Source of the DNA: Luteibacter flocculans
Lineage (GTDB): Bacteria > Pseudomonadota > Gammaproteobacteria > Xanthomonadales > Rhodanobacteraceae
Assembly: GCF_023612255.1 (NCBI RefSeq)
Contig: NZ_CP063231.1
Span: forward strand, 1,346,001-1,410,000
Length of the DNA: 64,000 nt
Direction: 5' to 3'
A model generated the notes under the pieces. That model had not been told where the DNA came from and searched no databases. It saw nothing but the letters and a program-made list of their open reading frames with translations. Shown in pieces: positions 1-25,900 of the stretch (position 1 is its first letter; the number at the start of each line of letters is the position of its first letter). The position numbers and the translations under genes are program-made.

Positions 1-510
1 TTCATCGTGTTCTACCGCACCGGTTTGACTATGCCGCTTCTCGCAGTGGGCGGTACCGGTTATGCCACCGGCCAGGTCTGGTATGACGCTGCGAATGCAC
101 GCTGGGGCTTCATGATCACCTCGGGCGGCGGGGTAGGCACGTCGGTGCCGTTCTACATTTTCGACGTCCCTTACGACTCCGATCCTGGTTTCGGCCTGCA
201 GGTCTTCAATGCGGCTGGTCAGAAGACGTTCGACATCATGCAGAAATACATGCGCGTGAATGACTTCTACTCGGTCAGCGCAGCCGTGTTGGCGACACGA
301 AACTACGACCCTTCGCGCGTCTACGCATGCATCCACATGATCGTAGGCTTTCGAATATCGGCTCAGGCTGGCAACACGCAGCTCGTCGCGAGCAGGGTAT
401 CGGGCGGCTCAGTCACCACGACGGGAATCATTGTGGACGGACCTCAGGGCATTCCCACTATCAATGAAGCGTTGGCCGTGATCCTCGTGGTCGACGTTAC
501 CTACTACTGA
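1..510 (+). CDS. Phage tail-associated protein, 5' partial
   Basis: The reading frame is open from the first base of the window, so the true start lies outside; a GTG at 7 is only an internal candidate. The visible part (about 169 codons) is rich in Gly, Ser, Thr and Tyr with alternating beta-type residues and ends in a short hydrophobic segment, as in tail-fibre or virion surface proteins. It ends 7 bases before a gene with a clear tail-fibre domain, so a tail role is inferred from position and composition. I do not recognise a specific family. Confidence 0.6.
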   Translation, partial: FIVFYRTGLTMPLLAVGGTGYATGQVWYDAANARWGFMITSGGGVGTSVPFYIFDVPYDSDPGFGLQVFNAAGQKTFDIMQKYMRVNDFYSVSAAVLATRNYDPSRVYACIHMIVGFRISAQAGNTQLVASRVSGGSVTTTGIIVDGPQGIPTINEALAVILVVDVTYY

Positions 511-517
511 GGCATCC

Positions 518-1012
518 ATGGCACAGCAAGCTATCAATTTTGACCCTGCGACTGGTGATGACACCAGTGGTGCGCTGCGGAAGCTCGACAACAACGTCAA
601 TGACCACGAGACGCGCATTGTCGCAGTGAAGGCAACAGCCGACGGAGCTGCTGGGACGGCCGCGACTGCTGGGACGGCCGCGAATACGGCGAACACCGCT
701 CTCACGGCGACTGGCTGGTCTGCGGCGGTGGCGCCCCAGATCAACTCGATCGATGGTGTGAACCGCTCGGCGATCTACCGATTCATTGCGACTACACCTG
801 GCGCGCTACCTACGAACCAGGCCTACGGAACGCTGATTACGCTGTCGTACAGCGCATCGGACTACACGCAGCTCGCCACAAGCGTCACGAACAACGAAAT
901 GGCGTTTCGCTTCTATCGAGGTGCGGGCGGCGGCTGGAACGCCTGGAACCGCGTATGGCATTCCGGCAACACGACCGTCGACGCCAACCTATTCATCAAG
1001 AAGGCCAACTAA
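518..1012 (+). CDS. Phage tail fibre protein with pyocin-knob-like C-terminus
   Basis: This 164-residue protein begins with a short segment typical of tail-fibre N-termini (TGDDTSGALRKLDNNVNDHE), followed by an Ala/Thr-rich low-complexity linker (about 45-70). The C-terminal half (about 85-155) has the aromatic pattern of a pyocin-knob domain: AYGTLIT, SASDYTQLAT, MAFRFYRG, WNAWNRVWHSGN. Such domains sit at the receptor-binding end of phage tail fibres or R-type pyocins. It follows another tail gene by 7 bp and is one base from the next, indicating one late operon. The short length suggests a small secondary fibre rather than the main spike. Confidence 0.75.
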   Translation: MAQQAINFDPATGDDTSGALRKLDNNVNDHETRIVAVKATADGAAGTAATAGTAANTANTALTATGWSAAVAPQINSIDGVNRSAIYRFIATTPGALPTNQAYGTLITLSYSASDYTQLATSVTNNEMAFRFYRGAGGGWNAWNRVWHSGNTTVDANLFIKKAN

Positions 1013-1013
1013 G

Positions 1014-1457
1014 ATGCATGTGCAAGGCTCCGTTGCGTTCAATTTCCTGCCAGACGGCACGATCGTAGAAGAGGGCGACCATTCGCCGGCTGTCAGCGAC
1101 GGGATCAACGTTCCGTTCGACGCGCTGTCCATCCATGTGTCCCATGCCGCCACCGGTGACTATCGAATCGATGGTCCGGGACTGAGCTGGCCGGCGGGTT
1201 GGAAGATCACCATCTTCAAAGACGAGAACGACGAAAACACGGTGCGCGTGACTCTCTCTGCGGACGCGGGCACGCTGCGCGTTCAGTGCGTCGACCCGAC
1301 GACCCACGATCCGAAAGACGTGGTCTACATGATGACGGTGCGCGTTGGCATAAACGCCGACATCGAATACGTGCCGCCCGTCCCGCCGCCGATGCCCGAA
1401 GGTGTCGCCCCGCCGATCGGCGAGCCTGCGGGATTTGAGCCCGACGCCACGGCCTGA
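1014..1457 (+). CDS. Phage tail-operon hypothetical protein
   Basis: The ATG at 1014 is one base after the upstream stop; an earlier in-frame codon would overlap the fibre gene, so 1014 is preferred. The 147-residue product has a beta-rich body (about 1-120) and a proline-rich acidic C-terminal tail (PPVPPPMPEG). It has no signal peptide or transmembrane segment. Tight packing behind two tail genes suggests a tail or fibre-assembly accessory protein, but I recognise no family. Confidence 0.6.
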   Translation: MHVQGSVAFNFLPDGTIVEEGDHSPAVSDGINVPFDALSIHVSHAATGDYRIDGPGLSWPAGWKITIFKDENDENTVRVTLSADAGTLRVQCVDPTTHDPKDVVYMMTVRVGINADIEYVPPVPPPMPEGVAPPIGEPAGFEPDATA

Positions 1458-1491
1458 CACCGCCGTCACGCCCTGACGGTATGCTGCGGCC

Positions 1492-2193
1492 ATGTGCGGC
1501 CGCTACGCCACCTTCGGACCTGTCTCCGTCTCTCGCCACGAGCGGGAGGTGCTCGAGCAAATCGAGTTGGACATCATCAGCGAGATCAATCAGCGGGAGC
1601 CGAAGTACAACATTGCCCCGATGCAGCGCGCGCCGGTGGTCGTGTACGGGGATGGCGGCTACCACGTCCGCGACTACCGCTGGGGCCTGGTGCCTCACTG
1701 GTCGAAGGATCTCAAGTTCGGGGCGAAGACGATCAACGCCCGCGCCGACACCGTGGCGAGCAAGCCATCGTTCCGCGAGGCGTTCAAGAAGCGTCGATGC
1801 CTGGTGCCGGCCAGCGGCTACTATGAGTGGAAGGGCCAGTCGCCGAACAAGCAGCCCTATTTCATCCACGACCCTGCCGGCCACCTGCTCATGTTCGCGG
1901 GCCTGTGGGAAGGCTGGCGGGAATCGCCCGAGGCCGAGTGGGTGCATACCTTCACGGTCATCACCGGCGAGCCTGGGAAGGTCTCCGGCGACATCCACGA
2001 CCGGCAGCCGGTGATCCTGCCGCCCGACCTGTGGACCGTGTGGTGCGAGGCGCCGCCGGCAGACGCCGCGGGCGTGCTCGCCGATGTCCCTGAGGCGGAC
2101 TTGGTCTACCACCCCGTCTCGAAGGCCGTGGGCTCGCCGAAGAACAGGGGGGCGGAACTGGTCGAACCTGCGGTTATCGTTGAGCCTTTTTAA
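1492..2193 (+). CDS. SOS response-associated peptidase (SRAP, YedK/HMCES family)
   Basis: The protein (233 aa) starts MCGRY, the family hallmark: Met removal exposes Cys2, which forms a stable thiazolidine crosslink with abasic sites in single-stranded DNA. Other conserved family positions are visible: N82 in INARAD, E112 in SGYYEWK, and H169 in IHDRQPV. Length is normal. It protects or processes AP sites at replication forks. It lies at the distal end of the phage tail operon, 34 bp behind the last tail gene, so it looks like prophage cargo rather than the core copy. The ATG at 1492 is fixed by the need for Cys2. Confidence 0.93.
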   Translation: MCGRYATFGPVSVSRHEREVLEQIELDIISEINQREPKYNIAPMQRAPVVVYGDGGYHVRDYRWGLVPHWSKDLKFGAKTINARADTVASKPSFREAFKKRRCLVPASGYYEWKGQSPNKQPYFIHDPAGHLLMFAGLWEGWRESPEAEWVHTFTVITGEPGKVSGDIHDRQPVILPPDLWTVWCEAPPADAAGVLADVPEADLVYHPVSKAVGSPKNRGAELVEPAVIVEPF

Positions 2194-2295
2194 GTCCCGT
2201 CGTCAGGCGGTCAGCATTGCCGAGGGCGATGATTTTGCGGATGCAGATATCGGCTCGCAAAATAAAATGTCAGATGCGATGAGTCGCTCCGCCGG

Positions 2296-2655
2296 CTACA
2301 GGCCCGCAGCTTCTTTCGCAAGTTCGCTCATTTCCTTTTGGAAGCTGCCCTGAAGTTCGGTAAGCCTCGAAACTATCTCGCCCTGCGAAAAGACCTCCAT
2401 CAAGGCCTTCGCCATTGCCAAGCATTGATTCGTCGGCATGATCAATACGCTGGTAGGGACGATGACCTCCTCACCCTCCGTGTCCTGGCTTTGTACTCCT
2501 AGGGTTAACTTTGAGGTAAATGGTCCCAACTGCATGCCAAGCATCTGATCTACGAAGATCGTGGAACAAGAAGGAAGTGACTGCTTGTCGACACGAATTC
2601 CGACGTTTTCCTTCACCTCAAGCTCCTTAACCTGGATTCTCTTCTTCGATGCCAT
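2296..2655 (-). CDS. Third gene of TA-like operon, DUF3467-like hypothetical
   Basis: The start is placed at 2655 (MASKKRIQVKEL) because it is preceded by a strong ribosome-binding site (AAGGAG, seven bases upstream); a longer in-frame reading would run deep into the upstream regulator gene. The 119-residue product has an N-terminal beta region and a segment (about 60-95: VIVPTSVLIMPTNQCLAMAKAL) that resembles DUF3467-type small proteins; this assignment is tentative. It overlaps the XRE gene by 29 bp in another frame and so is probably translationally coupled to it. It may be a chaperone-like third component of the toxin-antitoxin module; that role is inferred from arrangement only. Confidence 0.6.
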   Translation of the reverse strand: MASKKRIQVKELEVKENVGIRVDKQSLPSCSTIFVDQMLGMQLGPFTSKLTLGVQSQDTEGEEVIVPTSVLIMPTNQCLAMAKALMEVFSQGEIVSRLTELQGSFQKEMSELAKEAAGL

Positions 2656-3130
2656 TGTCGATCTCCTTAATTTCTTCGTCGTAGCTTCGGACATATAGAT
2701 CTTTCTCTGCGAGAAGAAAGCTTTCGCGCGCGAGAGCTGAGTAGGGGACAAGCTTGACGAGCAGGGCGCAACGAAAGGCGTGAGCTACTTCTTTCAGTCG
2801 AGCTAACGAATGAGATCCGTATTCCGGATCTTCCATCCTACTGATCGCCGATTGTCGCGTGGATAAGCGGTCGGCAAGATCGCGTTGGGTCATTCCCCGC
2901 ATCTCACGATTAATCCGGATCTGCCATGAGATGCCTTGGTCAACAGCTGCTTCTGCGTACGACTTTCTGTACTCCTCGTTTCGCCATTTCCGCTTTTGTG
3001 CCAGAAGCTGCGCAGACGTCGATCGACGCGCCTCATCAACTGAAATGCGAGCGACCGGAGTCAGCGACGCCGTTACTTTAACGGTGATCGTGGTGCTCCC
3101 GCCCAATCGCGGCTGCTTCTGCTCAGTCAC
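2627..3130 (-). CDS. XRE-family transcriptional regulator, putative antitoxin
   Basis: A helix-turn-helix of the Cro/cI (XRE) class is visible in the second half: GMTQRDLADRLSTRQSAISRMED, with a following helix LARLKEVAHAF. I place the start at GTG 3130 (VTEQKQPRLGG), which overlaps the upstream stop by 8 bp; an ATG at 3229 would add 33 residues and overlap the upstream gene by 107 bp. The N-terminal 65 residues are basic and polar and of unknown role. Being second behind a RelE/HigB-like gene, it fits a HigA-type antitoxin and autorepressor. Confidence 0.7.
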   Translation of the reverse strand: MTEQKQPRLGGSTTITVKVTASLTPVARISVDEARRSTSAQLLAQKRKWRNEEYRKSYAEAAVDQGISWQIRINREMRGMTQRDLADRLSTRQSAISRMEDPEYGSHSLARLKEVAHAFRCALLVKLVPYSALARESFLLAEKDLYVRSYDEEIKEIDNGIEEENPG

Positions 3131-3596
3131 ATTCCGTCGTAAGGCGCCTGAAGTCGGCGCAAACGACAGATTGATAGTGGCTTGCGAGCTTGATCGCGTT
3201 TTTGGGGTGGTAGACACCGTCATTCTCATGTCCCGGTAGTGTCATTACAAAACGACCCTCGGAAGGATCGGCGTGGCCGAAGACTCGCCATTGCCGACGC
3301 GACTCACCCTCGAATCGTATCACATATATGTGTTTGCCAAGCGGGGACGCGTGCGGCCTAGACCATCTGCTAAGCGGCTGTTGCGTCAGCTGTTCTTTCG
3401 CCCGGTCGAGGCGTGCCTCGGCGTAAGCCGACAAGTCCGACTTAATCCAGGCGTCAATAACGTCCCTTCCGCGCTCGTCCTTGCGGCAAAACCAAGACCA
3501 AGGGGGGCCCTTCGCGTCGCCCACTGCCCCCTCTGTGATCACCGTGCCGGTCAGTACCGTGCCAGCAGCAGCCCCCGGGCGATGTTTCTTCCCCAT
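3123..3596 (-). CDS. RelE/HigB-like (Gp49-type) putative toxin
   Basis: The C-terminal half (about 85-140) has the fold signature of HigB/Gp49-like toxins: HIYVIRFEGESRRQWRVFG, a strand FVMTLPG, then KNAIKLASHY as the terminal helix. HigB-like toxins cleave ribosome-bound mRNA. The N-terminal 45 residues are not typical of the family and include a Gly/Thr-rich stretch. It is the promoter-proximal gene of an overlapping toxin, XRE, third-gene operon, the order seen in higBA modules. At 157 aa it is longer than classic HigB (about 100 aa). The catalytic activity cannot be judged from sequence alone. Confidence 0.6.
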   Translation of the reverse strand: MGKKHRPGAAAGTVLTGTVITEGAVGDAKGPPWSWFCRKDERGRDVIDAWIKSDLSAYAEARLDRAKEQLTQQPLSRWSRPHASPLGKHIYVIRFEGESRRQWRVFGHADPSEGRFVMTLPGHENDGVYHPKNAIKLASHYQSVVCADFRRLTTECD

Positions 3597-3682
3597 GTTG
3601 CATCCTTTCCGTCCTTCCTTAAATGTCGGCGCGTGCCGTGAGACCTTGAGGCTCAGCCGATTCTAAGGTCGATTTTCGGCCG

Positions 3683-3964
3683 CTACAATGCATCGCAGCC
3701 TATGCGATCCAGCCCATCAGCGACGCACAGGATCCCGGCGCCATAGCCGTCGCGCGGCACGGTCCCGATGGGTCCGAGTCGCTCCGCTGTGTACGACGCG
3801 GCAAGCACGACATCGAGATGGCCCGCCACGTCCGCCCTGGCGATGATGAGCTGCGCCCGAAACCGCGCCTCGTCGAAGTCGCCGGCCAGCGCAGCTTGGG
3901 CCATAGCCTCGCAGTCCCGCACGATCTGCGCCACGGTGATGATGGTTTCTTCGTCGGGTTCCAT
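3683..3964 (-). CDS. Small phage hypothetical protein
   Basis: A 93-residue acidic, helix-rich protein (MEPDEETIITVAQIVRDCEAMAQAALAGDFDEARFRAQLIIARADVAGHLDVV is the general pattern, cited in part) with no membrane segment. Codon position bias looks coding. It lies alone, about 90 bp upstream of the putative toxin gene on the same strand. The ribosome-binding site is weak. No family is recognised. Confidence 0.45.
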   Translation of the reverse strand: MEPDEETIITVAQIVRDCEAMAQAALAGDFDEARFRAQLIIARADVAGHLDVVLAASYTAERLGPIGTVPRDGYGAGILCVADGLDRIGCDAL

Positions 3965-4064
3965 GGTCGGAGTCTAGCGGCGGCAAGCAGTTGCCGAGAC
4001 GTTCTTCTGCCGATTCCGCATACGGTCCACATTTCTGAGACCGGCCGCGCGTACCGTCGCGCCC

Positions 4065-4490
4065 ATGGCCCGCAGCGATCACCCACTCGTTTACTGGAAG
4101 CATTACGCGTACGGCTATGAGGCAAGGCTGACGCCATACGGGCGGGCCTTTGCACTGGCTCGGATGGTTACCGGTGTGCCAGGCATTCACTACGAACTGG
4201 TCTGGATCTACGGGCCAAAGTTCTGGCGACCGCAGCGCGTGTTCAACGTGATCACGATCGAGCGCATGGTCGACCGCTGGGTCGCATGCCATCGCGACAG
4301 CCTGATACGGAAGATGCCGCCCGACCCGATGAGGGTCATGGTGGCCAACCCGATCTTCGAGCAGCAGGATGACGCGATCACCTGCAGCGAGTCCACCTGC
4401 CCGGGTTGCGGGCGGTTCCTGGGGCACTGCACGAGGACGATATCGCGGGCCGCGCGTCAGAGGGGGAATGTGGGCTGGGCCTGCGCCTAG
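4065..4490 (+). CDS. Phage hypothetical protein with possible zinc knuckle
   Basis: The 141-residue product has a globular aromatic N-terminal part (YGYEARLTPYGRAFALARM, YELVWIYGPKFW) and a C-terminal CxxCxxC-type cluster (CSESTCPGCGRFLGHC) that could bind zinc. It is the only plus-strand gene at this end of the prophage and ends convergently against two small minus-strand genes, overlapping one by 4 bp. The start at 4065 has only a weak ribosome-binding site. No family is recognised. Confidence 0.45.
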   Translation: MARSDHPLVYWKHYAYGYEARLTPYGRAFALARMVTGVPGIHYELVWIYGPKFWRPQRVFNVITIERMVDRWVACHRDSLIRKMPPDPMRVMVANPIFEQQDDAITCSESTCPGCGRFLGHCTRTISRAARQRGNVGWACA

Positions 4491-4684
4491 TCGCGGCGCT
4501 GGGTGGCCTCGTAGCGCGCTACTGCGCACTTCGGGCATTCGCGTTGCCGCCAGCCGCCGAGGGTGCGCTGCCATGGGTTGTAGCCGCCGTGGTGCGGGCA
4601 GATCACCCACGCATTCTCGCGCTCGCGCCGCGCATCCGCTTCACTGCGGGATCGGTTCCGACCATAGAAGGCCATCAGCGACAA
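4487..4684 (-). CDS. Small zinc-ribbon-like phage protein
   Basis: The 65-residue product carries CPHHGG and CPKC separated by about 21 residues, a pattern compatible with a zinc ribbon. It is very basic. It overlaps the upstream minus-strand gene (stop at 4675) by 10 bp, so the two are likely co-translated. No family is recognised; a nucleic-acid-binding role is only suggested by charge and metal-ligand pattern. Confidence 0.4.
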   Translation of the reverse strand: MSLMAFYGRNRSRSEADARRERENAWVICPHHGGYNPWQRTLGGWRQRECPKCAVARYEATQRRD

Positions 4685-4863
4685 CCCCGGCGCCGAGGCA
4701 GGGGCCGCTGGTTTGGCAGGCAGATCGGGCAGGCCCGGTTATCCGGGTATCGCTCGCGGTGCCGCTCGCAGAACATGAAGCCGCGGCCGGCGAATGTGTG
4801 TCGATGGGTGAGGGCGCGGCGCTCCTCGAGCGTGTCGCGCATGAGCTTTCGGAACGAGGTCAT
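4675..4863 (-). CDS. Small Cys/His-rich phage protein
   Basis: The preferred start is MTSFRKLMRDTL (4863); a start at 4920 would add 19 residues. The roughly 62-residue product contains CERH and CPIC separated by 11 residues, again a potential zinc-binding pair, and a basic tail. It precedes and overlaps a second Cys/His-rich small gene. It is the last gene before the attachment scar at the right end of this prophage. Confidence 0.4.
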   Translation of the reverse strand: MTSFRKLMRDTLEERRALTHRHTFAGRGFMFCERHRERYPDNRACPICLPNQRPLPRRRGCR

Positions 4864-5023
4864 GTGGCGATTTTCTCGCCACTCGTTCTCACCGTTCGCG
4901 ACGGAAATTGCGGTCCGCAATTACTCAAAGTCATTAGCCAAATAGCGCAGAAATGCACGGTCTTTTGATGCCTAATCGGACCGGAAAATCTGGGTAAGCG
5001 TCGGTGCAACGCCATTCCTGACG

Positions 5024-5081
5024 AGACTTAAAATCCCTCATCCGAAAGGGTATGTGGGTTCGAGTCCCACTCCGGGCACCA
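5024..5081 (+). repeat. 3' part of tRNA-Leu(UAA): attachment-site scar
   Basis: The stretch contains the 3' half of a leucine tRNA: the anticodon-loop sequence ACTTAAAATCCC, a short variable arm (CATCCGAAAGGGTATG), a T-arm GTGGGTTCGAGTCCCAC, and acceptor strand TCCGGGCACCA. No D-arm or matching 5' acceptor strand is found upstream, so the gene is truncated and probably not functional. Tyrosine integrases commonly recombine inside the anticodon arm and leave such 3' fragments as att sites. It separates the tail-gene prophage on the left from the integrase-bearing element on the right; the complete tRNA must lie outside this window. Confidence 0.8.
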
Positions 5082-5264: not shown

Positions 5265-6491
5265 ATGCTCACCGATGCGAAACTTAGGGCCCTGAAGCAC
5301 CGAGAGACGCTTTACCGCGTCACTGACTCGGCGGGCCTCGCGGTCGAAGTGCCGGTTAACGGTGCTCCTCGCTGGCGCTTCCGCTACCGCTTCGACGGCA
5401 GGGCGAAGATGCTCAGCTTAGGCACGTATCCCAGCGTATCCCTTGCGCAAGCTCGCCTCCGGCGTGATGCGGCTAGAGCGCAACTGGCGAACGGCATCGA
5501 CCCGAGTGCGAATCGCCAAGAAGAAAAGCGCTCGCGTTCGTTGGCACTCGCGCCTGTTCCCACCTTCCGTTCAGTAGCCGAAATCTGGATGTCACGTCAG
5601 GACGTTTCCGAAGCGACAGCCAATAAATCCCGGTGGATCTTCACTAAGTTCCTTTACCCGGATCTCGGTGCACTCCCTCTGCGCGAAATCACGTCCCGAG
5701 TCGTACTGGACTGCCTCCGAAAGATCGAGGGGGCGGACATGCTGGAAACAGCCCGTCGCGCGAAAATCAGGGTGGGGCAGGTGTTCCGCTTTGCTGTGAT
5801 CGAGGGGCTGACCGACGTCGATCCTACGCAGCCCCTCCGTGGGGCGCTCAAGGCTCCGAAGGTCAAGCACCACGCAGCCATCGTGGACCCGGTAAAGATC
5901 GGTGGTCTACTGCGGGCCATCGACGGGTTCTCCGGGCAGTTCGTGACCCTGTGCGCCCTCCAGTTGGCTCCCCTTGTGTTCGTGCGTCCGGGCGAACTAC
6001 GGGCCGCTCAATGGTCCGAGTTCGATCTTGACGGGCATGTGTGGCGAATTCCTGGGGAGCGCATGAAGATGAAGGCGGCTCATGTCGTGCCGCTGTCGAA
6101 ACAGGCTGTTTCGGTCTTGCGCAAGCTGCATGAGTTTACCGGCCACGGACGTTACGTCTTCCCAAGCCTCCGGTCAGCGCACCGTCCCATGAGCGAGAAC
6201 ACAATCAACGCCGCGCTGCGTCGCCTTGGCTACTCCGGCGAAGAAATGACCGGGCACGGCTTCCGCAGCTTGGCCGCCACGCGCCTGAACGAAATGGGTT
6301 GGAACGCGGACGCCATCGAGCGCCAGCTAGCCCATGCGGAGTCAAACAAGGTCCGTGATGCCTACACGCATGCCGCTCAGTATCTCAAGGAGCGCACGAA
6401 GATGATGCAGGCGTGGTCGGATTATCTGGACAGCCTGAGGGCTGGTGGCAAGGTCGTTGCATTCAAACCGCAGGCGGGGTCTGCGGCGTAA
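5265..6491 (+). CDS. Tyrosine-type site-specific integrase (P4-like, DUF4102)
   Basis: This 408-residue integrase has the DUF4102-type N-terminal arm-binding domain (about 1-85, LSLGTYPSVSLAQAR), a SAM-like core-binding domain (about 100-190) and the catalytic domain. Active-site residues visible are R241 (VRPGELR), K near 268-270, H331 and R334 (HGFR), H357 (LAHAESN) and nucleophile Y367 (AYTHAAQYLKER). It catalyses integration and excision at the tRNA-Leu 3' end, which lies 184 bp upstream. The start at 5265 directly follows the last inverted GTGAGTA unit, which suggests autoregulation by the integrase. It appears intact. Confidence 0.95.
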   Translation: MLTDAKLRALKHRETLYRVTDSAGLAVEVPVNGAPRWRFRYRFDGRAKMLSLGTYPSVSLAQARLRRDAARAQLANGIDPSANRQEEKRSRSLALAPVPTFRSVAEIWMSRQDVSEATANKSRWIFTKFLYPDLGALPLREITSRVVLDCLRKIEGADMLETARRAKIRVGQVFRFAVIEGLTDVDPTQPLRGALKAPKVKHHAAIVDPVKIGGLLRAIDGFSGQFVTLCALQLAPLVFVRPGELRAAQWSEFDLDGHVWRIPGERMKMKAAHVVPLSKQAVSVLRKLHEFTGHGRYVFPSLRSAHRPMSENTINAALRRLGYSGEEMTGHGFRSLAATRLNEMGWNADAIERQLAHAESNKVRDAYTHAAQYLKERTKMMQAWSDYLDSLRAGGKVVAFKPQAGSAA

Positions 6492-8041: not shown

Positions 8042-8278
8042 ATGACCCACGTGTCCCATGTGTCGGGCCCGTTTGTGCCCGAAAACTCGATCAAGTTCCT
8101 CCGTCTTCCCGCTGTATGCGAACGCACGGGGCTTTCCCGCAGCCAGGTCTATCGACTGGAAGCCGCCGGCAAGTTCCCGCGACGCGTAAAGCTCGCCCTT
8201 TCCACAAGCGCCTGGGTGGAAGCAGAGATTCAGCTTTGGGCGGCCGACCGCATCGCCGCCTCGCGGGGTGAGGCATGA
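8042..8278 (+). CDS. AlpA-family regulatory protein / excisionase-like
   Basis: The product (78 aa from the preferred ATG 8042) is a small MerR-like helix-turn-helix protein: LRLPAVCERTGLSRSQVYRLEAAGKFPRRVKL followed by SAWVEAEIQLW is the AlpA pattern (cited in part). AlpA-like proteins activate or repress integrase and excision genes in P4-like elements. An in-frame start at 7979 would add 21 residues. It overlaps the next gene by 4 bp (ATGA), so the two are translationally coupled. Confidence 0.85.
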   Translation: MTHVSHVSGPFVPENSIKFLRLPAVCERTGLSRSQVYRLEAAGKFPRRVKLALSTSAWVEAEIQLWAADRIAASRGEA

Positions 8279-8679
8279 ACCGCGCTCCGCGTTGTCCTCG
8301 CTTCGATTCCTGCAACGCTCCGATCTGCCCCCTCGACCCGAAGTGGCCGACTGCCCAGCACATCAAGGGCGAGCGGGTGTGCGCGATGCTCTCGGAGCTG
8401 GTCAAGGTGGGCGGTAAGGCCCGTCTAGAGGGACTTCTGTCCGCGGAGCAATTGGATGCCCTGATAAGGGAATGGCCAAAGGTGGAAGCACGATGGAGTC
8501 CCATCCGTGCACGACTGAAGGACGCGGCCACGTCGGGATCGCGTATCGAGCACGGAAAGCGCTTTGGAAGGGGGTCTGTATCCGGGGAGCAACCACGACC
8601 CCTAGCTCACCCATTGGCGAGGTCACGTAGCCTTGATACAGGCCCAGCTAGAGGGGGCGTTAGCGGGGGTGCAGGGTGA
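8275..8679 (+). CDS. Cys-containing hypothetical protein of mobile elements
   Basis: The N-terminus has a CPRFDSCNAPICPLD motif followed by a helical region (HIKGERVCAMLSELVKVGG), an arrangement often found in small proteins behind AlpA in proteobacterial elements. Four cysteines could bind a metal. The last 35 residues are low complexity. It overlaps both neighbours by 4 bp, forming an AlpA, Cys-protein, winged-helix protein operon. Function is unknown. Confidence 0.55.
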   Translation: MNRAPRCPRFDSCNAPICPLDPKWPTAQHIKGERVCAMLSELVKVGGKARLEGLLSAEQLDALIREWPKVEARWSPIRARLKDAATSGSRIEHGKRFGRGSVSGEQPRPLAHPLARSRSLDTGPARGGVSGGAG

Positions 8680-9173
8680 CAGCGCCGAAGAAGCGATGGA
8701 GAGAGAAGGGGCGCAAGGAATCTGGCAACTTCTCCCTGATTCCTCATGCCGTACAGGACTCTCCGAACTGGAAGGCGTGCAGCGGGACAGCGGTCAAGCT
8801 GCTTTGTGATCTCGCTCGCCAATATAACGGCCGGAACAACGGGGATCTGTGTGCAGCACGTAGTGTCCTAGCCACTCGTGGCTGGCGCTCACCGGACACT
8901 CTAGATCGGGCACTCCACGAACTCCTGCACTACGGGTTCATCACGCTGACCCGCCAGGGTGGCCGCAACTTGGCGAACCTCTACGGATTGACTTGGCATG
9001 CCATAGACGAGTGCGACGGAAAGCTTGATTGCTCGGCTACGAGGGTTGCGTCGGGTGACTGGAAACTCGCGAAACCACCGTTCAAGCGACGTCCGAGAAT
9101 TGAAAGTAGTAGTACGGAATCCGTAGCAACTAACTACGGAATCCGTACTAGTGGGACTTCCAAGGCAGCCTGA
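8676..9173 (+). CDS. Winged-helix replication-initiator-like protein
   Basis: This 165-residue protein starts at GTG 8676 with a 4-bp overlap to the upstream gene. Residues about 20-110 have the helix and wing arrangement of phage or plasmid replication proteins: SGTAVKLLCDLARQY, then LCAARSVLATRGW and DTLDRALHELLHYGFITLTRQGG. The basic C-terminus follows. Two copies of a 13-bp palindrome lie within its 3' end and two more just downstream, as expected for a Rep protein and its iterons. The replication role is inferred from fold, position and iterons; a purely regulatory role is also possible. Confidence 0.6.
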   Translation: MTAPKKRWREKGRKESGNFSLIPHAVQDSPNWKACSGTAVKLLCDLARQYNGRNNGDLCAARSVLATRGWRSPDTLDRALHELLHYGFITLTRQGGRNLANLYGLTWHAIDECDGKLDCSATRVASGDWKLAKPPFKRRPRIESSSTESVATNYGIRTSGTSKAA

Positions 9174-9270: not shown

Positions 9271-9543
9271 ATGAGCATCTACTATCTCCCCGGATACCAC
9301 CCTACGACCTCCGCGAATCCGCCAACGGATTCGGCCCGGACAATCACAGGACGTGACGTACCGAGCAATGCTCTGAGCAACGCTCTGGCCGTTACTCAGC
9401 GCTCGCCAGGCTGGAACAATCGCAAGCCGGACATTCAGCGGGTCCAGTTGGGCGCTTGTACTCTGCTAGCGGTTCCGTACCGTCGATGGGCGTGGCGACG
9501 GTACGAGCAGCGGGTCGCAGCACAGCGACGAAAGGAAGCCTAA
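9271..9543 (+). CDS. Small basic hypothetical protein
   Basis: A 90-residue protein with a Ser/Thr/Pro-rich first half and a very basic C-terminus (YRRWAWRRYEQRVAAQRRKEA). It starts just after the iteron array and an AT-rich stretch, and its TAA overlaps the next start (TAATG). No family is recognised. Confidence 0.4.
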   Translation: MSIYYLPGYHPTTSANPPTDSARTITGRDVPSNALSNALAVTQRSPGWNNRKPDIQRVQLGACTLLAVPYRRWAWRRYEQRVAAQRRKEA

Positions 9544-10008
9544 TGACGATCGGCAGGCGGGCCGATCATGACGAGGCAATCATCGAGCGGGCGGCGAGGC
9601 GTTTAGCGGGTGCACTCGGGACCGGGCAGAGCTGGTTCGCAAACACCGCCATCGCGAGCGCTCGCGACCTTACTCACGAGGACGGGCTCATGCCGTCCGC
9701 CCTTACGGTCGTCCGCCGTGGGCGAGTGACGGAGCAGGCGGCGAAGTCCATCGGAGGCTCGGGCAAGGTGAAGCGCCAGCATCAGTGGTCAGCATCGAGG
9801 GGCGTAGTTGCCGTCCCCGCATGTCGCCCTGATAGCGAGGCGCTAGCATCTCTTAGCTTCGCGAAGCTGGACGGACCATTGGAGGCGATCTTGCTTCTAT
9901 ACGCGACAGGGGACGTGGAACGGTTCTGGCCGGTTGTGAAACGGTTCGGCTTGGCATGCCTTCGACGTCCCCCCGCTTTCAGTAGCGGAGCGAATTAGAG
10001 TCCGGGGG

Positions 10009-10827
10009 TTACTTTAGCTGCTCGGCGTAGGCGGCGGGAGTCAGCCCGCCCAACGCCTTCTTCGGCCGTTCCTCGTTATATTCCCTGCGCCAGTTTTCGA
10101 TCTCGGTGCGTGCGTGAAGCAGGCTCGGGAACCAGTGTTCATTGAGGCACTCGTCGCGCAAGCGGCCGTTGAACGATTCGATGTAGGCGTTCTGGTTCGG
10201 CTTGCCCGGTTCGATCAGGCGCAGCTGCACGCCACGCTCGTGGGCCCAGGTGACCATCGCCTTGCCACAGAACTCTTTGCCGTTGTCGCTACGAATTACC
10301 TTCGGAAGGCCGCGGGTCAGCGCCAGCCGATCCATCACGCGCGTCACGCCCATGCCGGAGATCGCGCGTTCGACTTCGATAACGACAGCCTCGTGCGTGG
10401 CGTCATCAACGACCGTCAGACACTTGATGACGCGGCCCTCGGCCGTGCGATCAAACACGAAGTCCATCGACCAGACCTCGTTGGGTGCCATGGGTCGGAA
10501 CAAGGGTTGCCGTTCGCCTGCTGGCACCTTTTTGCGCTTGCGGCGACGCACCTGCAGCTTGGCGGCTTGATACAGCCGCTCTACACGCTTGTAGTTCACG
10601 AGCATCCCTTCTTGCCTAAGCTTCAGATAGATCATGCCGACGCCATAGCGCTTGTGCCGCTGCGCCAAGGCCACGATCCGCTGTCGAAGTTCGCCATTGC
10701 GGTCCGCGCGCGGCGCGTAACGCAATGCACTGGCGCTCATACGAAGCACCATCAAAGCACGACGTTCGCTGAGTCCTTGGCTCGTCATCTCCCGCACCAG
10801 CAACCGTCGCGCCGGTGCCGTCACCAC
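10009..10827 (-). CDS. IS3-family transposase OrfB (DDE integrase core)
   Basis: The 272-residue product has an HTH_21-type region (about 35-90, [15 protein letters not shown]) and a retroviral-type integrase core with the DDE triad visible in [17 protein letters not shown] and [13 protein letters not shown]. The C-terminus ([18 protein letters not shown]) is typical of the family. It is normally made as an OrfAB fusion by programmed -1 frameshifting in the overlap with orfA. No disabling lesion is seen. Confidence 0.92.
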
Positions 10828-11090: not shown

Positions 11091-11367
11091 TCTCCGTCAG
11101 TTGGGGGATTGGACTCCAAATCACCGTGCTACTCAAAATCGGGGGGACGTCGCCTTCGCAATGCGTTCGCATCAGAGGCGTTTAACGACGCCATGGCACG
11201 CATCATGTATCGGAAGGCGGCACTGGCCCAGGATGACAGGGCGAAACAGCTGGGGATCAGGGCAAGTTCCTACCGGGTCGCGACTAGGGAGGCGGAGTCG
11301 ATGCTCAGGCGATGGCTTCTTATTGCCGCCAAGCGATACTTGCAAGCATTCCGCTAGCAAACCCAAA

Positions 11368-12036: not shown

Positions 12037-13017
12037 ATGGGCGGCGGAAGCTCTCAACCCAAGAACACGACGACGACCACCAAGACGGAACTCCCACCGT
12101 TTCTCTAGAACGCATACCAGCAGTTCTTTAACGAAACGAACGCGGTGAACAACAAGCCGTACCAGTCGTATACTGGACAGCTCAACGCCAACCCGACGAT
12201 TGACCAGACGTATGCGCTGGAATTGGCCCGGTCTGGCGCACAAGGCAACCCGCAGCAGTCGGCCGCCCTTTAGCAGCTTCTCGGTGGAAGCCAGAACGTC
12301 AAGGCGCAGACGAGCCCTTACGCTGGCCCGAACCAGTATCTCGATCAGGTCATCAGCAACTCCAATCGCGATATCACGGATGCTTACCAGCGAGGTACTG
12401 GGGTTGGCCTGCCGACGCAGTTTGCCCAAGGTGGCGCATTCGGTGGATCAGCCATGCAGTAGGCTCAGGATGCGAGCAAGTACCAGCTTGCGCAAACCCT
12501 GGCGGACAACACGAGCAACCTGCGATATCAGGACTACAACGCCCAGGCTGACCGCTGGCAACAGGGGTTCCAGAACCAGCTAGCCGCCTCGCAGAACAAC
12601 GCGCAGAACATCCTAGGGGCATCGAGTGCCCTCAATGGAGCCGGAGCGCTACAGGCGCAGTTCAACGGCCAGTACGGGCAGCTTGCACAGATCCAGCAGG
12701 ACTTCGCACAGGGCAACATCGACCAGGCTTACAACGACTGGTATCAGCGCAACTACGGCTACGACCAGCAGCGTCTTGCGAACTACGGAAACGCGCTTAA
12801 CTCGACGGCTGGTCAGTTCCAGGGATCGGCCACATCCGGCCTTAACCCGGCATATAAGCCTCGTACGGTCGGTGGTGGTGTCGCTGCGGGTGTCAGTGGT
12901 GCCGCAGCAGGTGGCGCTATTGGTGCAGCCATCGCGGGTGGCACCTCCGGCTCGGTTGTACCTGGCTGGGGTACCGCTATCGGCGCCGCCGCTGGGCTCG
13001 CTTCCTATTACCTATAA
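12037..13017 (+). pseudogene. Podovirus-type internal virion/ejection protein gene with three in-frame TAG codons
   Basis: A 327-codon frame runs from ATG 12037 (ribosome-binding site AGAGG) to TAA 13017 without any indel but with TAG at 12106, 12271 and 12460. The frame is very rich in Gln, Asn, Ala and Gly, with an Ala/Gly-rich hydrophobic C-terminus (about 275-325), typical of podovirus internal virion or DNA-ejection proteins. About 45 CAG and 4 CAA codons remain. Each TAG sits in a Gln-rich context, and the third follows a CAG. The pattern fits three CAG-to-TAG transitions. Decay is the simplest reading; amber reassignment is the alternative. Confidence 0.7.
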
Positions 13018-13027
13018 GGTGACTGCT

Positions 13028-13297
13028 ATGGAATATGTCGTTGTGCTAGATGCTGCTGCCCCGTCCGCTCGGCTCAATGCTGGGCTCGGCGTTCTCGCGG
13101 GCGTTCTGGTTGAGGGTGGTCCGCCAACGGTACTCGCCGTCACGTGTTCTGAGGTCGATACCTCGCACTCGCACCTGTTGCGAGCAAAGGTAAAGTCCGA
13201 CGAGGCCCCTGTCTTTTGGGTGCCCTACAGCCATCTTGTTGGGATATTGGAAGGGCCGTCGGCGACGCCAGCAAGCATGGGCTTCACCGCACATTGA
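13028..13297 (+). CDS. Small phage hypothetical protein
   Basis: The 89-residue product begins at ATG 13028, 10 bp after the virion gene. It has two hydrophobic stretches (EYVVVLDAAAP, LGVLAGVLVEGG) but no clear signal peptide. It is uninterrupted and ends in TGA, unlike its neighbours on both sides which are damaged. It is probably a phage structural or assembly accessory gene by position. Confidence 0.45.
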   Translation: MEYVVVLDAAAPSARLNAGLGVLAGVLVEGGPPTVLAVTCSEVDTSHSHLLRAKVKSDEAPVFWVPYSHLVGILEGPSATPASMGFTAH

Positions 13298-13823
13298 GTT
13301 GCCGCGTGGTTGGCGGGAGGAAGTAAGTGGGTCGCCTCCCGCCCCGAATGCCTCCGAGACCTCCGCAATGGGGGTCTGTACCGTCACTGGGTCTGGCCCT
13401 AGGGATGAGGTGGCCCCTTGTTGCCCTTCAGCCACAGCCGACCACCGCTGTGGACCGCTCAACGACAATTTGCCTAAGCCCCGTGCCCGGCCATTTTCGG
13501 CAAGAACCCTGGGCAACCGGGCGGCTGGCTAGACCGGTCCATCAGTAGCGGCATTGGCGGGCTCCTGGGCTCCGGCCTACGTGGTATCGAGGGCGGCCTC
13601 CTGGGGTCCAGCCTGGGTCTGGGCGTCAGTGATGCCATCGGAGCCGCCAATTCTCGCGTGACGGCTCGCACGGGGTAGATGGCAGCCGATGCCGGGGTAC
13701 GGCTGAGGCCATCCAGCGTTGGCTCTCCAAGCAGCCCAAGGCCAGCAGCGGGGGCTGCTGGACTACTACCTTTACGGTCTTCCCGCAGCCGCAGCCAACG
13801 GACCCTGATCGGGTAAGGGGGTC
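13298..13823 (+). pseudogene. Decayed phage structural sequence
   Basis: No intact gene with a good start is found in this 526-bp stretch, but fragments read like protein. A Gly/Leu/Ser-rich piece in the frame of 13499-13676 (SISSGIGGLLGSGLRG) resembles virion glycine-rich proteins and lacks a start, and a fragment near 13708-13800 reads AIQRWLSKQP in yet another frame. Frame changes between fragments indicate indels. It probably belongs to the same phage module as the amber-bearing gene. Confidence 0.4.
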
Positions 13824-13858: not shown

Positions 13859-15055
13859 ATGGAACGTAACTCTATCAATCCGGCGGTACTGGTCTGGGCG
13901 CGGGAATCCGCAGGTCTGGGCTTGGCTGAAGCTGCTCGAAAGATCGGGTTGTCCGCGAGCCGTAACCTAAGCCCTGCTGAGAAACTTGCTCAAATCGAGC
14001 AGGGTGCGCGAGCAGTCAGCACCTCGCTCCTAGAATGCATGAGCAAGGCGTACCACCGCCCACTCATTGCATTTTACGCGGCTACACCGCCGCCAACAGG
14101 AGAGCGTGGGGCGGATTTTCGGACCCTGCCTCCCGACCGACGGTGTGAAGATGCGCCGACAATTGACGCGCTCATTCGCGACATTAAGGCACGTCAGGCC
14201 CTTGTCCGAGAGTTAGTTGAAGACGATGAAGGGGTCGAACCGATCCGCTTCGTCAATTCTCTAACAATGGATACGCCCATCAGCGTAGCTGCGCAGGCCA
14301 TAGCTGGAGCACTAGGGTTCACTAGCCGAGGGTTCAGGCGCGGACCGGTTGAGGCTGGCTTCGCGTACTTAAGGGAGTTGGTAGAGCGCACCGGTGTATT
14401 CGTGCTGCTAATGGGGAATCTTGGTTCCAGTCACACCAACATTAGTGCGGAGGTCTTCCGAGGGTTCGCTGTCGCCGACCGATTTGCCCCGTTCGTAGTT
14501 ATAAATGACCAGGATGCCAAGGTTTCTTGGTCATTTACGCTTCTGCATGAGCTGGTACATATATGGCTCGGGGCGTCAGGAATCAGCGGTGGTTCCGCGG
14601 ACAGTCGAATTGAGCGGTACTGTAACGATGTAGCGAGTGCACTCCTCTTAGACCAAGCAGAGCTTGAGGGCTTTGTCTGGACTGGAGACGATCGAGCGTT
14701 AGAAGCCATAAATCAGATTGCGCAAGAGGCAAGGGTCAGCCGGAGTCTTGTTGCCTACCGTCTGTTTCGCTCGCACGTTGTAACGGAGATAGTATGGCGC
14801 ACGCTCACTGACCGTTTTAGGCAGGAGTGGCTGGCAGAGCGCGAGCGCCTGAAGGCGATTGAGAAAACAGCAAGAAAAGAAAAGCCCGGGGGCCCTAGTT
14901 ACTACGTCGTGAAGCGCCACAAGCTAGGTGATGCGCTGGTCGACCTTGTTCGACGTTCCGTAGCTGAAGGTAACCTGACACCTTCGAGGGCAGGACAAGT
15001 CTTGGGTGTTAGCGCAATGAATGTCCAGCCGCTTATCAGCGGCAAAGCGGCATAG
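13859..15055 (+). CDS. XRE/ImmA-IrrE metallopeptidase-domain protein, antitoxin partner
   Basis: The 398-residue protein combines an XRE-like N-terminus (about 8-75, ESAGLGLAEAARKIGLSAS) with an ImmA/IrrE-type zinc peptidase domain: H230-E231-x-x-H234 in LLHELVHIWLG, with RIERYCNDVASALLL supplying the third-ligand helix. Such proteins are found as the partner of DUF4411 PIN-like toxins in type II systems. The next gene, 8 bp downstream, is exactly that. The C-terminus (about 335-398) is helical with another HTH-like motif (PSRAGQVLGVSAMNVQPLISG). It may bind the operon promoter and neutralise the toxin. Confidence 0.85.
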   Translation: MERNSINPAVLVWARESAGLGLAEAARKIGLSASRNLSPAEKLAQIEQGARAVSTSLLECMSKAYHRPLIAFYAATPPPTGERGADFRTLPPDRRCEDAPTIDALIRDIKARQALVRELVEDDEGVEPIRFVNSLTMDTPISVAAQAIAGALGFTSRGFRRGPVEAGFAYLRELVERTGVFVLLMGNLGSSHTNISAEVFRGFAVADRFAPFVVINDQDAKVSWSFTLLHELVHIWLGASGISGGSADSRIERYCNDVASALLLDQAELEGFVWTGDDRALEAINQIAQEARVSRSLVAYRLFRSHVVTEIVWRTLTDRFRQEWLAERERLKAIEKTARKEKPGGPSYYVVKRHKLGDALVDLVRRSVAEGNLTPSRAGQVLGVSAMNVQPLISGKAA

Positions 15056-15063
15056 GGATTGTG

Positions 15064-15570
15064 ATGCTTTATCTACTTGACGCGAATGTCCTCATTACGG
15101 CGAACAATCAGTACTACGCTCTCGATGCGGTCCCTGAGTTCTGGGACTGGATGCTCCATGTCGCGGGAGCGGGGTACGTGAAGATGCCTCGTGAGACGTT
15201 GGCAGAGTTGAAGGGAGGCAATGCTCAAAAGGATGCCCTCCACGCATGGGCGGCTAGTCAGGACGTTAGGGACGCTTTGGCCCTACGAGAGGACGTAGAT
15301 GCTGATCTGGTGAGGAAGGTTATTGCTGAGGGATACGCTCCAGATCTGAGTGATGACGAGTACGATCTTCTCGGGCAAGATCCCTTTCTGATCGCCCATG
15401 CATTTCGCGCCCCCCAGGACCGTGTAGTAGTCAGCATGGAAGTATCGAAGCCGTCACTCGCTCGGGCTAGGCGGAAGGTGCCCGATGTGTGTAAAACCTT
15501 GAACGTCAGGTGCCGTGACACATTCCAGTTCATTCGTGAGCTGGGTTTTCGGACCAATTGGAAGACGTAG
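15064..15570 (+). CDS. DUF4411 PIN-like toxin
   Basis: A 168-residue PIN-fold protein: the first acidic residue is in YLLDANVLITA, further ones in PRETLAELKGG, and DPFLIAHA carries the third, matching DUF4411 nucleases. PIN toxins cleave RNA. It directly follows the ImmA/IrrE gene (8 bp), a known toxin-antitoxin arrangement. The GTG at 15061 would add one residue; the ATG at 15064 is preferred. No lesion is visible. Confidence 0.85.
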   Translation: MLYLLDANVLITANNQYYALDAVPEFWDWMLHVAGAGYVKMPRETLAELKGGNAQKDALHAWAASQDVRDALALREDVDADLVRKVIAEGYAPDLSDDEYDLLGQDPFLIAHAFRAPQDRVVVSMEVSKPSLARARRKVPDVCKTLNVRCRDTFQFIRELGFRTNWKT

Positions 15571-22942: not shown

Positions 22943-25900
22943 TTACTGCTCGCCGTGCGGCTCTTGGCGAGGGCGGGTGAGCAAGTCGCCCTGGGCGGGG
23001 GTAGATGCTGGCTTGGCCGCCTCGACGTGCGAGACCGCCGAGACGTTGGACGCGTCCGGCGACTTCGGCGTGACCGGCGCCGATGCAGGCGTCGACTTGG
23101 GTGCGGACGTGGCAGATGCCGCCGTCTCGTCGGCATCCTCGCCCGTTGCCGTCGAAGTCTCGGCAGACGAGGACGCAGGGGCCGACGCCGGGAGGGCTTC
23201 GGACGCAGTGGTCTGCGCTACGGACGAGCTCACCGGTGAAGTCACCGTCGACGGGGTGACGACAGGCTCGGCCTGCTGACGCGCCGCCTTGGCACTATCG
23301 TCGCTGCTCGGGCTATCGGTGGCTTCCGGCAACAGACCGCGCGCGGGCGTGTCGAGCGAGGACACCACTTCCGTCGTGGCCTCCACAGGCGCCTGTTCAG
23401 CCTCGGCTGCCGCTGGCGCAACCGCCGACGTGGTCGCGGCGATCACGACGGGCTCGTGCTTCGCCTCGACGATCGGTTCGGCGGCGGATGCCTCGGGTGC
23501 CGTTACTTCCGCGTGGGCGACGCCGGTCGGCGTCGCGGCCGGCACGGGTGCCGAGCCACTGACCGGTGCGCTCTTCAACGGCGCATCGGATTCCGTCTGG
23601 CGGCGTTCCGTGGTGCGGCTATCGGCCGAATCCGCGGGCGTGGTTGCTTCCGCTGTCGCCGCATGCGACGTCGTGGAGGTGCTGGTACCGGGAATCGGCG
23701 GGAGCTTGGGCAAGGATGGCAGCGTCAGTGCCGAGGGTACGGCCTCGTCGTCGGCAGGCTCGCCGGGCTGGGTTGCCATGACGCCGACCGGCGCCTCGAC
23801 CGCGAAGGCGTTCTCGGCAGCGGCGGCGGTGTCCAGCATCGGCGGGACGCTCGGGCTGTCGCGGCCGGTGTCGACGGATGCATCGTCGTCACCGTCTTCG
23901 TCGTCCAGATCGTCGGCAGCGTTGCTACCTTCCGCCATGGTGCCAGCTGCGGCACCGTCTTCCTGGCGACGGCGGCGGCGGCCGCCACGACGACCGCGGC
24001 GGCGACGCTGGCCGCCTTCCGTGTCCTTGTCCTTCGCGCCGTCCGTACCCGGGGCGGCGCTCGCGTCCGCAGCGATCATGGCCTCGGCATCGGCCAACGA
24101 TGCCTCGGTGACTGCCAACGTGGCGTCCTCGGGCTTCACGGCGGGGGTGGCAGGCTTCTCGGACGGGGCGCGGGGTGCCGGTGCAACGATTGGCGCGGCG
24201 CCGGCTGCGACGGCGGCCGTATTCGCTACGGCCTTGTCGGCCTTCTCGCCCTGCGGCTGGCGCTCGCCACGTGGCTGCTGCTGGCGACGGTTCTCACCCT
24301 GCGCGGCCTGCTCCTGGCGCGGCTGGCGACCGCCCTGTGCCTGCGGATCCTTCTGCCGACCCTGCTGCTTTTCGTCGTTCTGGCGGCCCTGACCCTGCTC
24401 GCCGCGGCCCTGCTGCTTGTTGCCGCCCTTCGGCTGCTGGCCGCGGGCCTGCTGCTGCGTGCTGTCCTTGCGCTGGCCCTGCGGCGCGCGCTGCTCGCCG
24501 CCCTTGCCGCGGCCTTCGTTGCCACGACGCTCGTCGCGGCGACCATTGCGCTCGTTGCGGTCGTTACGACCACCCTGGCGGTTTTCATCACGGCGGGTCG
24601 GAGCGGCAGGCTGGGCGACCGGTGCGGCAGGCGTGCCGCCGCCAAACAGGCTGCCGAACAGGCGGGAGAAGAATCCACCGCTGGACGGAGCTGCTGCCGG
24701 AGCGGGAGCCGCCGTGCGAGCCGGTGCCGGGGCAACCACGGTTTCGTTGTCGTCGTCGCGCAGCGGCGCGGGCGTGGACGGAACCACGCCGGTCACCAAC
24801 GGCTGCTCGCCGCTGCCCAGGGCCTGGCCCATCTTCGGCAGCACCGTGGCGATGGCCGGGGTGGTGCGCTCATAGCTGGGCTTGCTGTGCTCGCCCATGT
24901 CCGCTTCGCGGATACGGGTGATCTCCAGGTGCGGCGTTTCCAGTTTGTCGTCGGCCACGACCACGACGTGGACGCTGTGGCGAAGCTCGATCTCGACGAT
25001 GCTGGCGCGCTTTTCGTTGAGCATGAAGTTGGCGACCGAAGGCGGCGCCTGCACCAGGACCTGCCCGGTGTTTTCCTTCATCGCGTGCTCTTCGATCAGG
25101 CGCAGGGTCGACAGCGCCAGCGATTCCACGCTGCGGATGTGGCCGTGACCTTCGCAACGCGGGCACACGATCTGCGTGGCCTCACCCAGGCTCGGGCGCA
25201 GGCGTTGACGCGACATTTCGAGCAGGCCGAAGCGGGAGATGCGGCCGATCTGGACGCGCGCACGGTCGGCCTTGAGCGCCTCCTTGAGGCGCTCTTCCAC
25301 TTCGCGCTGGTGGCGCGGGCTGTCCATGTCGATGAAATCGATGACGATCAGGCCGCCGGCGTCGCGGATGCGCAGCTGGCGGGCGATTTCCGTCGCCGCT
25401 TCGAGGTTGGTGTTGAACGCCGTTTCCTCGATGTCGCTGCCCTTGGTGGCCTTCGACGAGTTGATGTCGATGGCGGTCAGCGCTTCGGTCTGGTCGATGA
25501 CGATCGAGCCACCGGACGGCAGGCGGACGTTCCGCTCGAAGATGCTCTCGATCTGCGTTTCGATCTGGTAGCGCGAGAACAGCGGGGTGGGGTCCTGGTA
25601 CAGCTTGAGCTTGCGCAGGTTGTTCGGCATCACCTGCTGCACGAAATCGCGGGCGTCGTTGAACAGCGACTCCTCGTCGATCAGGATTTCGCCGATGTCG
25701 TTGCGCAGGTAATCACGCAGGGCGCGGATGAACAGCTTCGACTCCTGATAGATCAGGAAGGGCGCCTTCTGCGAATTAGCGGCAGAGGAAATCGACTTCC
25801 ACAGCTGCAGCAGGTAATCGAGATCCCACTGGAGTTCCTCGGCGTCGCGGCCCATGCCGGCAGTACGCACGATAAGGCCCATCTCGTCGGGCACCTGAAG

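Follow-up and report, generated by a model that had tools for sequence, protein, structure and literature searches.

Why should a phage virion gene in the chromosome of Luteibacter flocculans stay whole in every respect except for three stop codons inside its reading frame? We analysed a window of 64,000 nucleotides (positions 1346001-1410000) from the single-contig genome of 4,299,254 bp, in which a frame of 326 codons, terminated by TAA, holds TAG at codons 24, 79 and 142. An earlier sequence-only reading had described three in-frame TAGs without TAA, TGA or a frameshift, and we confirmed them at 12106, 12271 and 12460. It had offered either decay or reading of TAG as glutamine by a recoded phage, with decay favoured. 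The protein is Gln-rich, and an AAGAGG motif stands just 5' of the ATG by eye; the gene has 38 CAG, 5 CAA and 3 TAG codons, so the figure of about 45 CAG codons given in that reading was slightly high. We agree with its caution that TAG in a CAG-rich gene is by itself weak evidence, and our case rests on relatives. The gene lies in a small integrative element, the features of which are given below together with comparisons to a similar element in a Luteibacter relative (genome G021).

5025-5081 (genome 1351025-1351081), forward strand: left attachment site, 57 bp that repeat the 3' part of tRNA-Leu(TAA) exactly
5265-6491, forward strand: tyrosine integrase, 408 aa, with relatives in other small elements
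8275-8679, forward strand: p134, a 134-aa protein with relatives in some small elements and no family match
8676-9173, forward strand: DnaD-like (helicase-loader-type) protein (phrog_186, E 7.4e-5)
9271-9543, forward strand: p90, a 90-aa protein of small elements
9543-9962, forward strand: first part of the p205 gene, cut by the insertion sequence; matches G021 protein residues 1-139 with 59% identity
9963-11152, reverse strand: insertion sequence with an rve-type transposase at 10009-10827
11154-11357, forward strand: remainder of the p205 gene beyond the insertion sequence; matches G021 protein residues 139-201 with 65% identity
12037-13017, forward strand: gp7-like DNA ejection protein gene, 326 codons, with TAG at 12106, 12271 and 12460, probably Gln in the family
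13028-13297, forward strand: 89-aa open frame, distantly related (E 6e-6, 26% identity) to the 97-aa gene after gp7 in G021
13489-13810 (right edge approximate), forward strand: end of a gp16-like gene, a remnant
13859-15055, forward strand: transcription-regulator/IrrE-type (Peptidase_M78) protein, probable cargo, also in G021
15061-15570, forward strand: DUF4411 protein, probable cargo, also in G021

The interrupted gene is called gp7-like here, gp7 being the name of the ejection protein in P22. Assignment to the gp7-type family draws on a remote sequence match and on the position among P22-like late genes, with gene order taken from the recoded phage G149. The 'DNA ejection protein' profile phrog_4287 matched the G021 gene at E 1.2e-10 and the window fragment at E 8.9e-4, and the fragment also matched a tail tape-measure profile at E 8.4e-4. 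The window protein thus shares a family profile with P22 gp7-type ejection proteins, as a remote match. A PDB sequence search with the window-gene alignment found no relative, and neither the window fragment nor the gp16-like protein had a match in protein searches of the phage collection.

The complete tRNA-Leu(TAA) gene that the left repeat copies lies 44 kb upstream, with another prophage in between. A paper on L. flocculans EIF3T (PMC9965599) places a siphovirus-like prophage region at 1,306,588-1,352,491; on the evidence of the repeat at 5025-5081 and the integrase behind it, our element appears to start about where that prophage ends, the two standing in tandem at one tRNA, and the part of the paper available to us holds no description of the gp7-bearing element. 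Positions 1-5024 of the window are the end of that separate prophage at the same tRNA-Leu site, siphovirus-like according to the available part of PMC9965599. Empty-site comparison did not find the right end of the element; host genes are back by an RNase E/G gene at 22943, perhaps from about 19.2 kb.

The window copy is damaged. Its p205 gene is split by the insertion sequence, a second copy of which (1190 bp, 100% identical) lies elsewhere in the genome, and by comparison with G021 about 3.3 kb holding gp20 and most of gp16 has gone; gp7 and the 89-aa frame are whole. The 'decayed' sequence at 13298-13823, which the sequence-only reading took as support for decay, is explained by this loss, since its portion from 13489 onwards is the end of the gp16-like gene. 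Erosion next door is therefore real, as that reading held, but the TAGs are not explained by it. The regulator and DUF4411 pair (13859-15570) lies in a stretch 92% identical to G021.

Relatives of the gene were sought through the TAG-free end of the protein, which recovered homologs in 14 viral contigs, in 8 of 149 genomes (our own included) and in 7 named genome contigs, four of Luteibacter and three of Dyella. Twenty genes were examined in full; two genome copies (G020 and G072) were omitted as near copies of G153 and G160, and two more (G200 and G223) were found later. In-frame TAG occurred in 17 of the 20, with 80 TAGs and not a single internal TAA or TGA, and the frames themselves terminate in TAA (12) or TGA (8). 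By group, TAG was present in 11/14 viral-contig genes (49 TAGs) and in all six small-element genes (31 TAGs). The three TAG-free homologs (G154, G156 and G159) form one group of the gene tree, with support 92/92. Opposite TAG in the gp7-like gene, glutamine had a weight of 40.2 of about 80, followed by asparagine with 7.0; over all well-supported genes, glutamine was again commonest, at 23-38% in eleven phages and 40-55% in six small elements.

The earlier expectation of CAG at each of the three window positions held in part. Across 19 homologs, codon 142 is mostly glutamine (Gln 13, Asp 4, TAG 2), codon 79 is mixed (Gln 6, Asn 6, Thr 4, Asp 1, Ala 1, TAG 1), and codon 24 is mainly serine or alanine (Ser 8, Ala 7, Thr 1, Lys 1, Gln 1, TAG 1). 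The window and G021 genes differ with a dN/dS of 0.047 at a dS of 1.14 and have no TAG in common: there are eight TAG differences, 4 opposite CAG and 1 opposite CAA. TAG makes up a similar share of TAG plus CAG in the gp7-like genes of the six small elements (31/260) and of the eleven phages (49/485). The first TAG does not seem to come earlier in the small elements than in the phages, as a selected lock might have it; the codon numbers are alike by eye. The gene tree calls for at least 3 moves between phages and small elements, which implies that the gene was captured repeatedly and that some TAG turnover may stem from time spent in phages.

The full-length phages carry a candidate decoder. 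A scan of 22 records for tRNAs with anticodon CTA gave 12 matches, ten in viral contigs and two in the genome copies G020 and G072; every one shares the strand of the genes and precedes the virion motif by 10.7-11.8 kb. ARAGORN alone found 8. The CUA tRNA is therefore present in 10 of the 14 viral contigs, or in 10 of the 12 that reach the place, G159 and G161 being too short. G154 and G156 reach the place and have no tRNA there; their gp7-like gene is TAG-free, and among the 11082 codons of their 33 late frames are 4 TAGs, close to where frames end, in what we take to be flanks outside the genes. The CUA tRNAs have in common GGGG at positions 2-5, a mismatched 1-72 pair with C72, the pairs G2-C71 and G3-C70, and G73; in both tRNA-Gln genes of the host, GGG starts at position 2 with CCC opposite, and G73 and U1-A72 are present. 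The identity elements of glutamine tRNAs are the basis for charging by GlnRS, and the CUA tRNAs, with an acceptor end of glutamine type, would thus be charged by that enzyme.

At the tRNA locus itself (L050, L043, L048, L161 and their kin) we observed at least four bodies: two kinds of 75 nt, one of 87-90 nt with a long variable arm, and one of 71 nt with a reduced D arm. Such unlike bodies with the same CUA, the same acceptor end and C72 suggest that the suppressor tRNA has been repeatedly replaced at its locus. We had also considered that integration into a tRNA gene makes or breaks the suppressor, because some prophages adjoin tRNA-Leu or tRNA-Gly; this idea was dropped, as the CUA tRNA is a separate gene inside the phage. 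In a broader sweep, the tRNA pattern occurred in 81 stretches of viral contigs (L145-L224), some of them in contigs above 100 kb, and ARAGORN called a CTA tRNA in 60 of 80 loci scanned, so that this type of suppressor tRNA extends beyond the present P22-like family.

Where the TAGs lie along the phage genomes was counted in the ten phages with a mapped tRNA, over plus-strand genes with homologs in at least 5 records. Downstream of the tRNA, from terminase to tail, 147 genes with 49118 codons held 406 TAGs; at least one occurred in 127 of these genes. Genes up to 3.2 kb upstream of the tRNA (the endolysin among them in G149) held 33 TAGs in 6461 codons, and the earlier phage genes 2 in 9436. 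The late frames, which by design were read through TAG, closed with TGA (111) or TAA (79), with homology extending to the end, in 190 of 196 cases; 4 of the others align early and 2 run off. PHROG families in G149 include terminase, portal, scaffold, coat, endolysin, a CI-like repressor and a DnaB-type helicase, by which predicted content we class the recoded relatives as P22-like temperate phages. One further genome, G199 (L289-L290), has a prophage-like region with a suppressor tRNA and early-gene relatives and no match to the terminase-to-tail queries.

How TAG behaves was also measured by codon comparison. We aligned related genes 70-99.5% identical within each group and counted first-base C/T exchanges. 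In 214 ORF pairs of recoded-phage late genes, CAG and TAG exchanged in 352/2943 cases, next to 297/1872 for the synonymous CTR/TTR change and 175/10973 for pooled missense changes; CAA/TAA (0/198) and CGA/TGA (0/201) exchanges were absent. In 12 related ORF pairs of small-element late genes the counts were 27/285 for CAG/TAG, 21/75 for synonymous and 8/449 for missense exchange. No CAG/TAG exchange was seen in the small elements' other genes (0/146) or in the late genes of standard-code relatives (0/230), and the recoded phages' other genes gave 11/237, near the missense level, with weakly supported frames included. TAG hence exchanges with CAG as a synonym, far above missense, also among the small elements. 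The exchange is below the synonymous rate in both groups, reaching about three quarters of it in the phages and, in the small elements, about a third; for the latter (27/285 against 21/75) p is about 1e-4, p-values being a guide only because the compared pairs are related by descent. Decay would not yield nonsense exchange above missense exchange and so is not the cause of this pattern, which strongly supports TAG=Gln recoding of the gene family, as far as aligned genes can tell. The comparison favours the recoding alternative of the sequence-only reading: 17/20 homologs carry in-frame TAG, exchanging with CAG, and the phages have the tRNA. Its preference for decay does not stand for the gene family.

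For the host, TAG is an ordinary stop, as it terminates 2 of the window's 23 long host frames. An amber suppressor tRNA of the host, another point that the earlier reading wished to see checked, did not turn up: the L. flocculans genome has 47 RF00005 matches, 44 above the cut-off, and no CTA anticodon among 45 distinct tRNAs recognised by ARAGORN. Across the 233 family genomes, the suppressor-tRNA pattern matched in 9, of which by eye three were tRNAs (G020, G072 and G199) and six were chance. None of the eight genomes with a gp7-bearing element was among them, seven of these being checked by the pattern, which would miss an unlike suppressor tRNA.

Small elements with gp7 were found in eight genomes (G000, which is L. 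flocculans, G021, G004, G012, G003, G086, G200 and G223), with 39 TAGs in all and at least 3 in each copy. In the first six, gp7 stands behind an integrase at a tRNA-Leu gene (at its repeat in L. flocculans), with short genes in common. An integrase and a p205-type gene accompany gp7 in 8/8 genomes and a DnaD-like gene in six; the latter was not found in G012 and G086, so the core is not uniform. At E 1e-10, integrase, p134, DnaD-like, p90 and p205 proteins had no match among the phage contigs, and the 97-aa gene behind gp7 in G021 matched only in G003 and G012. Small-element frames with full-phage relatives do exist (G021 25063-25671 and 41579-41866). Of the 233 family genomes, 36 have the DnaD-like gene, and we fetched 17 of the 40 places listed for it: integrase relatives were present in 16 and gp7 in two, namely G200 and G223, whose gp7 genes each contain 4 TAGs. 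We did not find gp20 or gp16 relatives in these two stretches, which suggests that gp7 alone may suffice. Among the other 15 fetched stretches, 14 have the integrase and the DnaD-like gene and no gp7.

Virion-type content varies among the elements. In G086, the gp7-, gp20- and gp16-like frames have 6, 7 and 11 TAGs and all stay open, the gp20-like frame matching virion-structural and endolysin families; in G003, gp20 homology ends after about 200 aa. As for satellite traits, an own integrase and an attachment site at a tRNA gene are present (in the window, the left site only), and no head or packaging family was detected among the scanned frames of the elements in L. flocculans, G021 and G012. 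A portal relative occurs in 3/233 family genomes, G020 (3 TAGs), G072 (8 TAGs) and G178 (weak), and in none of the eight gp7-element genomes; no strain holding a recoded prophage together with a small element came to light. Several islands of this kind carry other large genes: a Rhodanobacteraceae island with integrase and DnaD-like gene encodes a predicted Cas9-type protein (HNH_4, RuvC_III and Cas9_a; 1058 aa; L277:9452-12628, reverse strand), and two others, in two genomes, have a putative MmeI-type restriction-modification protein of 928 aa as cargo (L274:6659-9445, forward strand; L275:11256-14042, reverse strand), called by Pfam on the L274 copy, the L275 copy having the same start. One small element of G021 includes two large serine recombinases (L027:11753-13297, reverse strand; L027:5805-7649, forward strand), with relatives in others.

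How, then, are the TAGs of the window gene to be understood? Plain decay, that is, CAG-to-TAG transitions in a dying prophage gene, can point to 38 CAG codons, from which TAG is the likeliest nonsense change, and to an element that has lost gp20 and most of gp16 and has an insertion sequence nearby. Against it stand the 20 homologous genes, with 80 TAGs but never an internal TAA or TGA, nonsense exchange exceeding missense exchange in the small elements and likewise in the viral contigs, and the low dN/dS of the window gene against G021 despite eight TAG differences. We regard decay as largely refuted for the gene family and as very unlikely for the window copy. A host that itself reads TAG as an amino acid, or owns a suppressor, has nothing in its favour that we could find; the absence of a CTA anticodon from the host's own tRNAs, the host frames that end in TAG and the lack of CAG/TAG exchange in the small elements' other genes make this the most far-fetched reading. 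Programmed partial read-through, in which near-cognate host tRNAs would pass a few TAGs and no recoding is involved, would spare the small elements the need for a phage tRNA, but at 3-9 TAGs per gp7 gene, and 24 over three G086 genes, it would leave almost no product; TAG positions are mostly unshared, the phages have a dedicated tRNA, and we hold such read-through to be highly improbable.

The window could also hold the remnant of an ordinary full phage that has shed its tRNA, head and tail genes, so that TAG=Gln was once real and is now meaningless. This would fit with gp7 being common to full phages, with the loss of gp20 and gp16 here, and with the phage relatives that a few other small-element frames have. 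The integrase and p205-type gene, however, recur with gp7 in all eight genomes and the DnaD-like gene in six; the integrase, p134, DnaD-like, p90 and p205 proteins lack phage-contig matches; integrase and DnaD-like gene occur without gp7 in nearly all the other fetched stretches; and the gene after gp7 in G021 is matched only in two fellow small elements. With the portal relative absent from the genome and a suppressor tRNA not found in it, the recoded-prophage picture of the sequence-only reading does not carry over to the window itself, and we consider a remnant unlikely.

The element is instead probably satellite-like, with a virion gene readable only under the code of a recoded helper phage. 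The gene would come from the late virion part of P22-like temperate Rhodanobacteraceae phages that read TAG as Gln and that would decode it by their own CUA tRNA almost only in late genes. A small integrative element, with its tRNA-Leu integrase, DnaD-like gene, short genes and cargo, would then have carried the gene off; the window element yielded neither a suppressor tRNA nor any gene for head, portal or terminase. The TAGs would persist if the gene is translated only in cells with an active recoded phage and its suppressor tRNA, which is the simplest account, since TAG would otherwise have been purged as in the elements' other genes. An ejection protein made at that time would help the element to travel in helper particles, or would interfere with the helper itself. 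The charging amino acid, the dependence on a helper and the use that the element makes of the protein we infer from these patterns; judged by its genes, the window element looks like a satellite bound to its helper's code. Whether the code also serves as a helper-sensing switch, with a satellite virion gene kept silent until the helper's amber-suppressor tRNA appears and expression thereby timed to the helper's late phase, is a tentative idea that we rate a little below an even chance.

Borges et al. reportedly worked in 2022 on phages with TAG read as Gln. Such phages are already known (PMC11210395, PMC10879173 and PMC9523058, each as far as available), and Cook et al. (PMC11210395, available part) give Sup-CTA in 375/715 table-15 phages and cite a role in late lytic genes. 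Code 15 phages, e.g., crAss-like ones, resemble ours in having in-frame TAG at Gln positions and a Sup-CTA tRNA, whereas the phages here are small, temperate, P22-like and from soil Rhodanobacteraceae, and recoded genes also occur in a small element without the tRNA. The P22-like podovirus ctkAd229 (Podoviridae sp., MW202691) has a TerL 53% identical and the P22-like order of portal, scaffold and coat, but as far as looked at uses the standard code. It had been a candidate for recoding, with two small genes annotated under TerL, and was rejected: there is no in-frame TAG in TerL, in the coat gene or in one tail-region gene. TAG closes its portal gene, and in the 38.7 of 40.5 kb covered ARAGORN detects no tRNA. 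Phage satellites (PICI, P4-like and PLE) share with the window element a tRNA-site integrase, a replication-type gene, cargo and the want of detected head or portal genes; the window element differs in having ejection-protein genes in a recoded phage's code. In the available part of PMC10879173, 'satellite' occurs only in a cited title. We found no account of phage satellites joined with a suppressor tRNA or an alternative code in the openly readable literature, which is weak evidence as most subscription papers and preprints lie outside it.

Recoded phages are known mostly from gut metagenomes. Those described here are prophages of soil Luteibacter and Dyella isolates, with the full recoded prophage in Luteibacter sp. 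Sphag1AF (G020) and Dyella sp. SG609 (G072), which opens the code switch to laboratory test. If the satellite reading is true, a mobile element that keeps genes in another's code would be a new kind of satellite-helper dependence, and TAG-interrupted 'pseudogenes' of bacterial genomes may be live genes.
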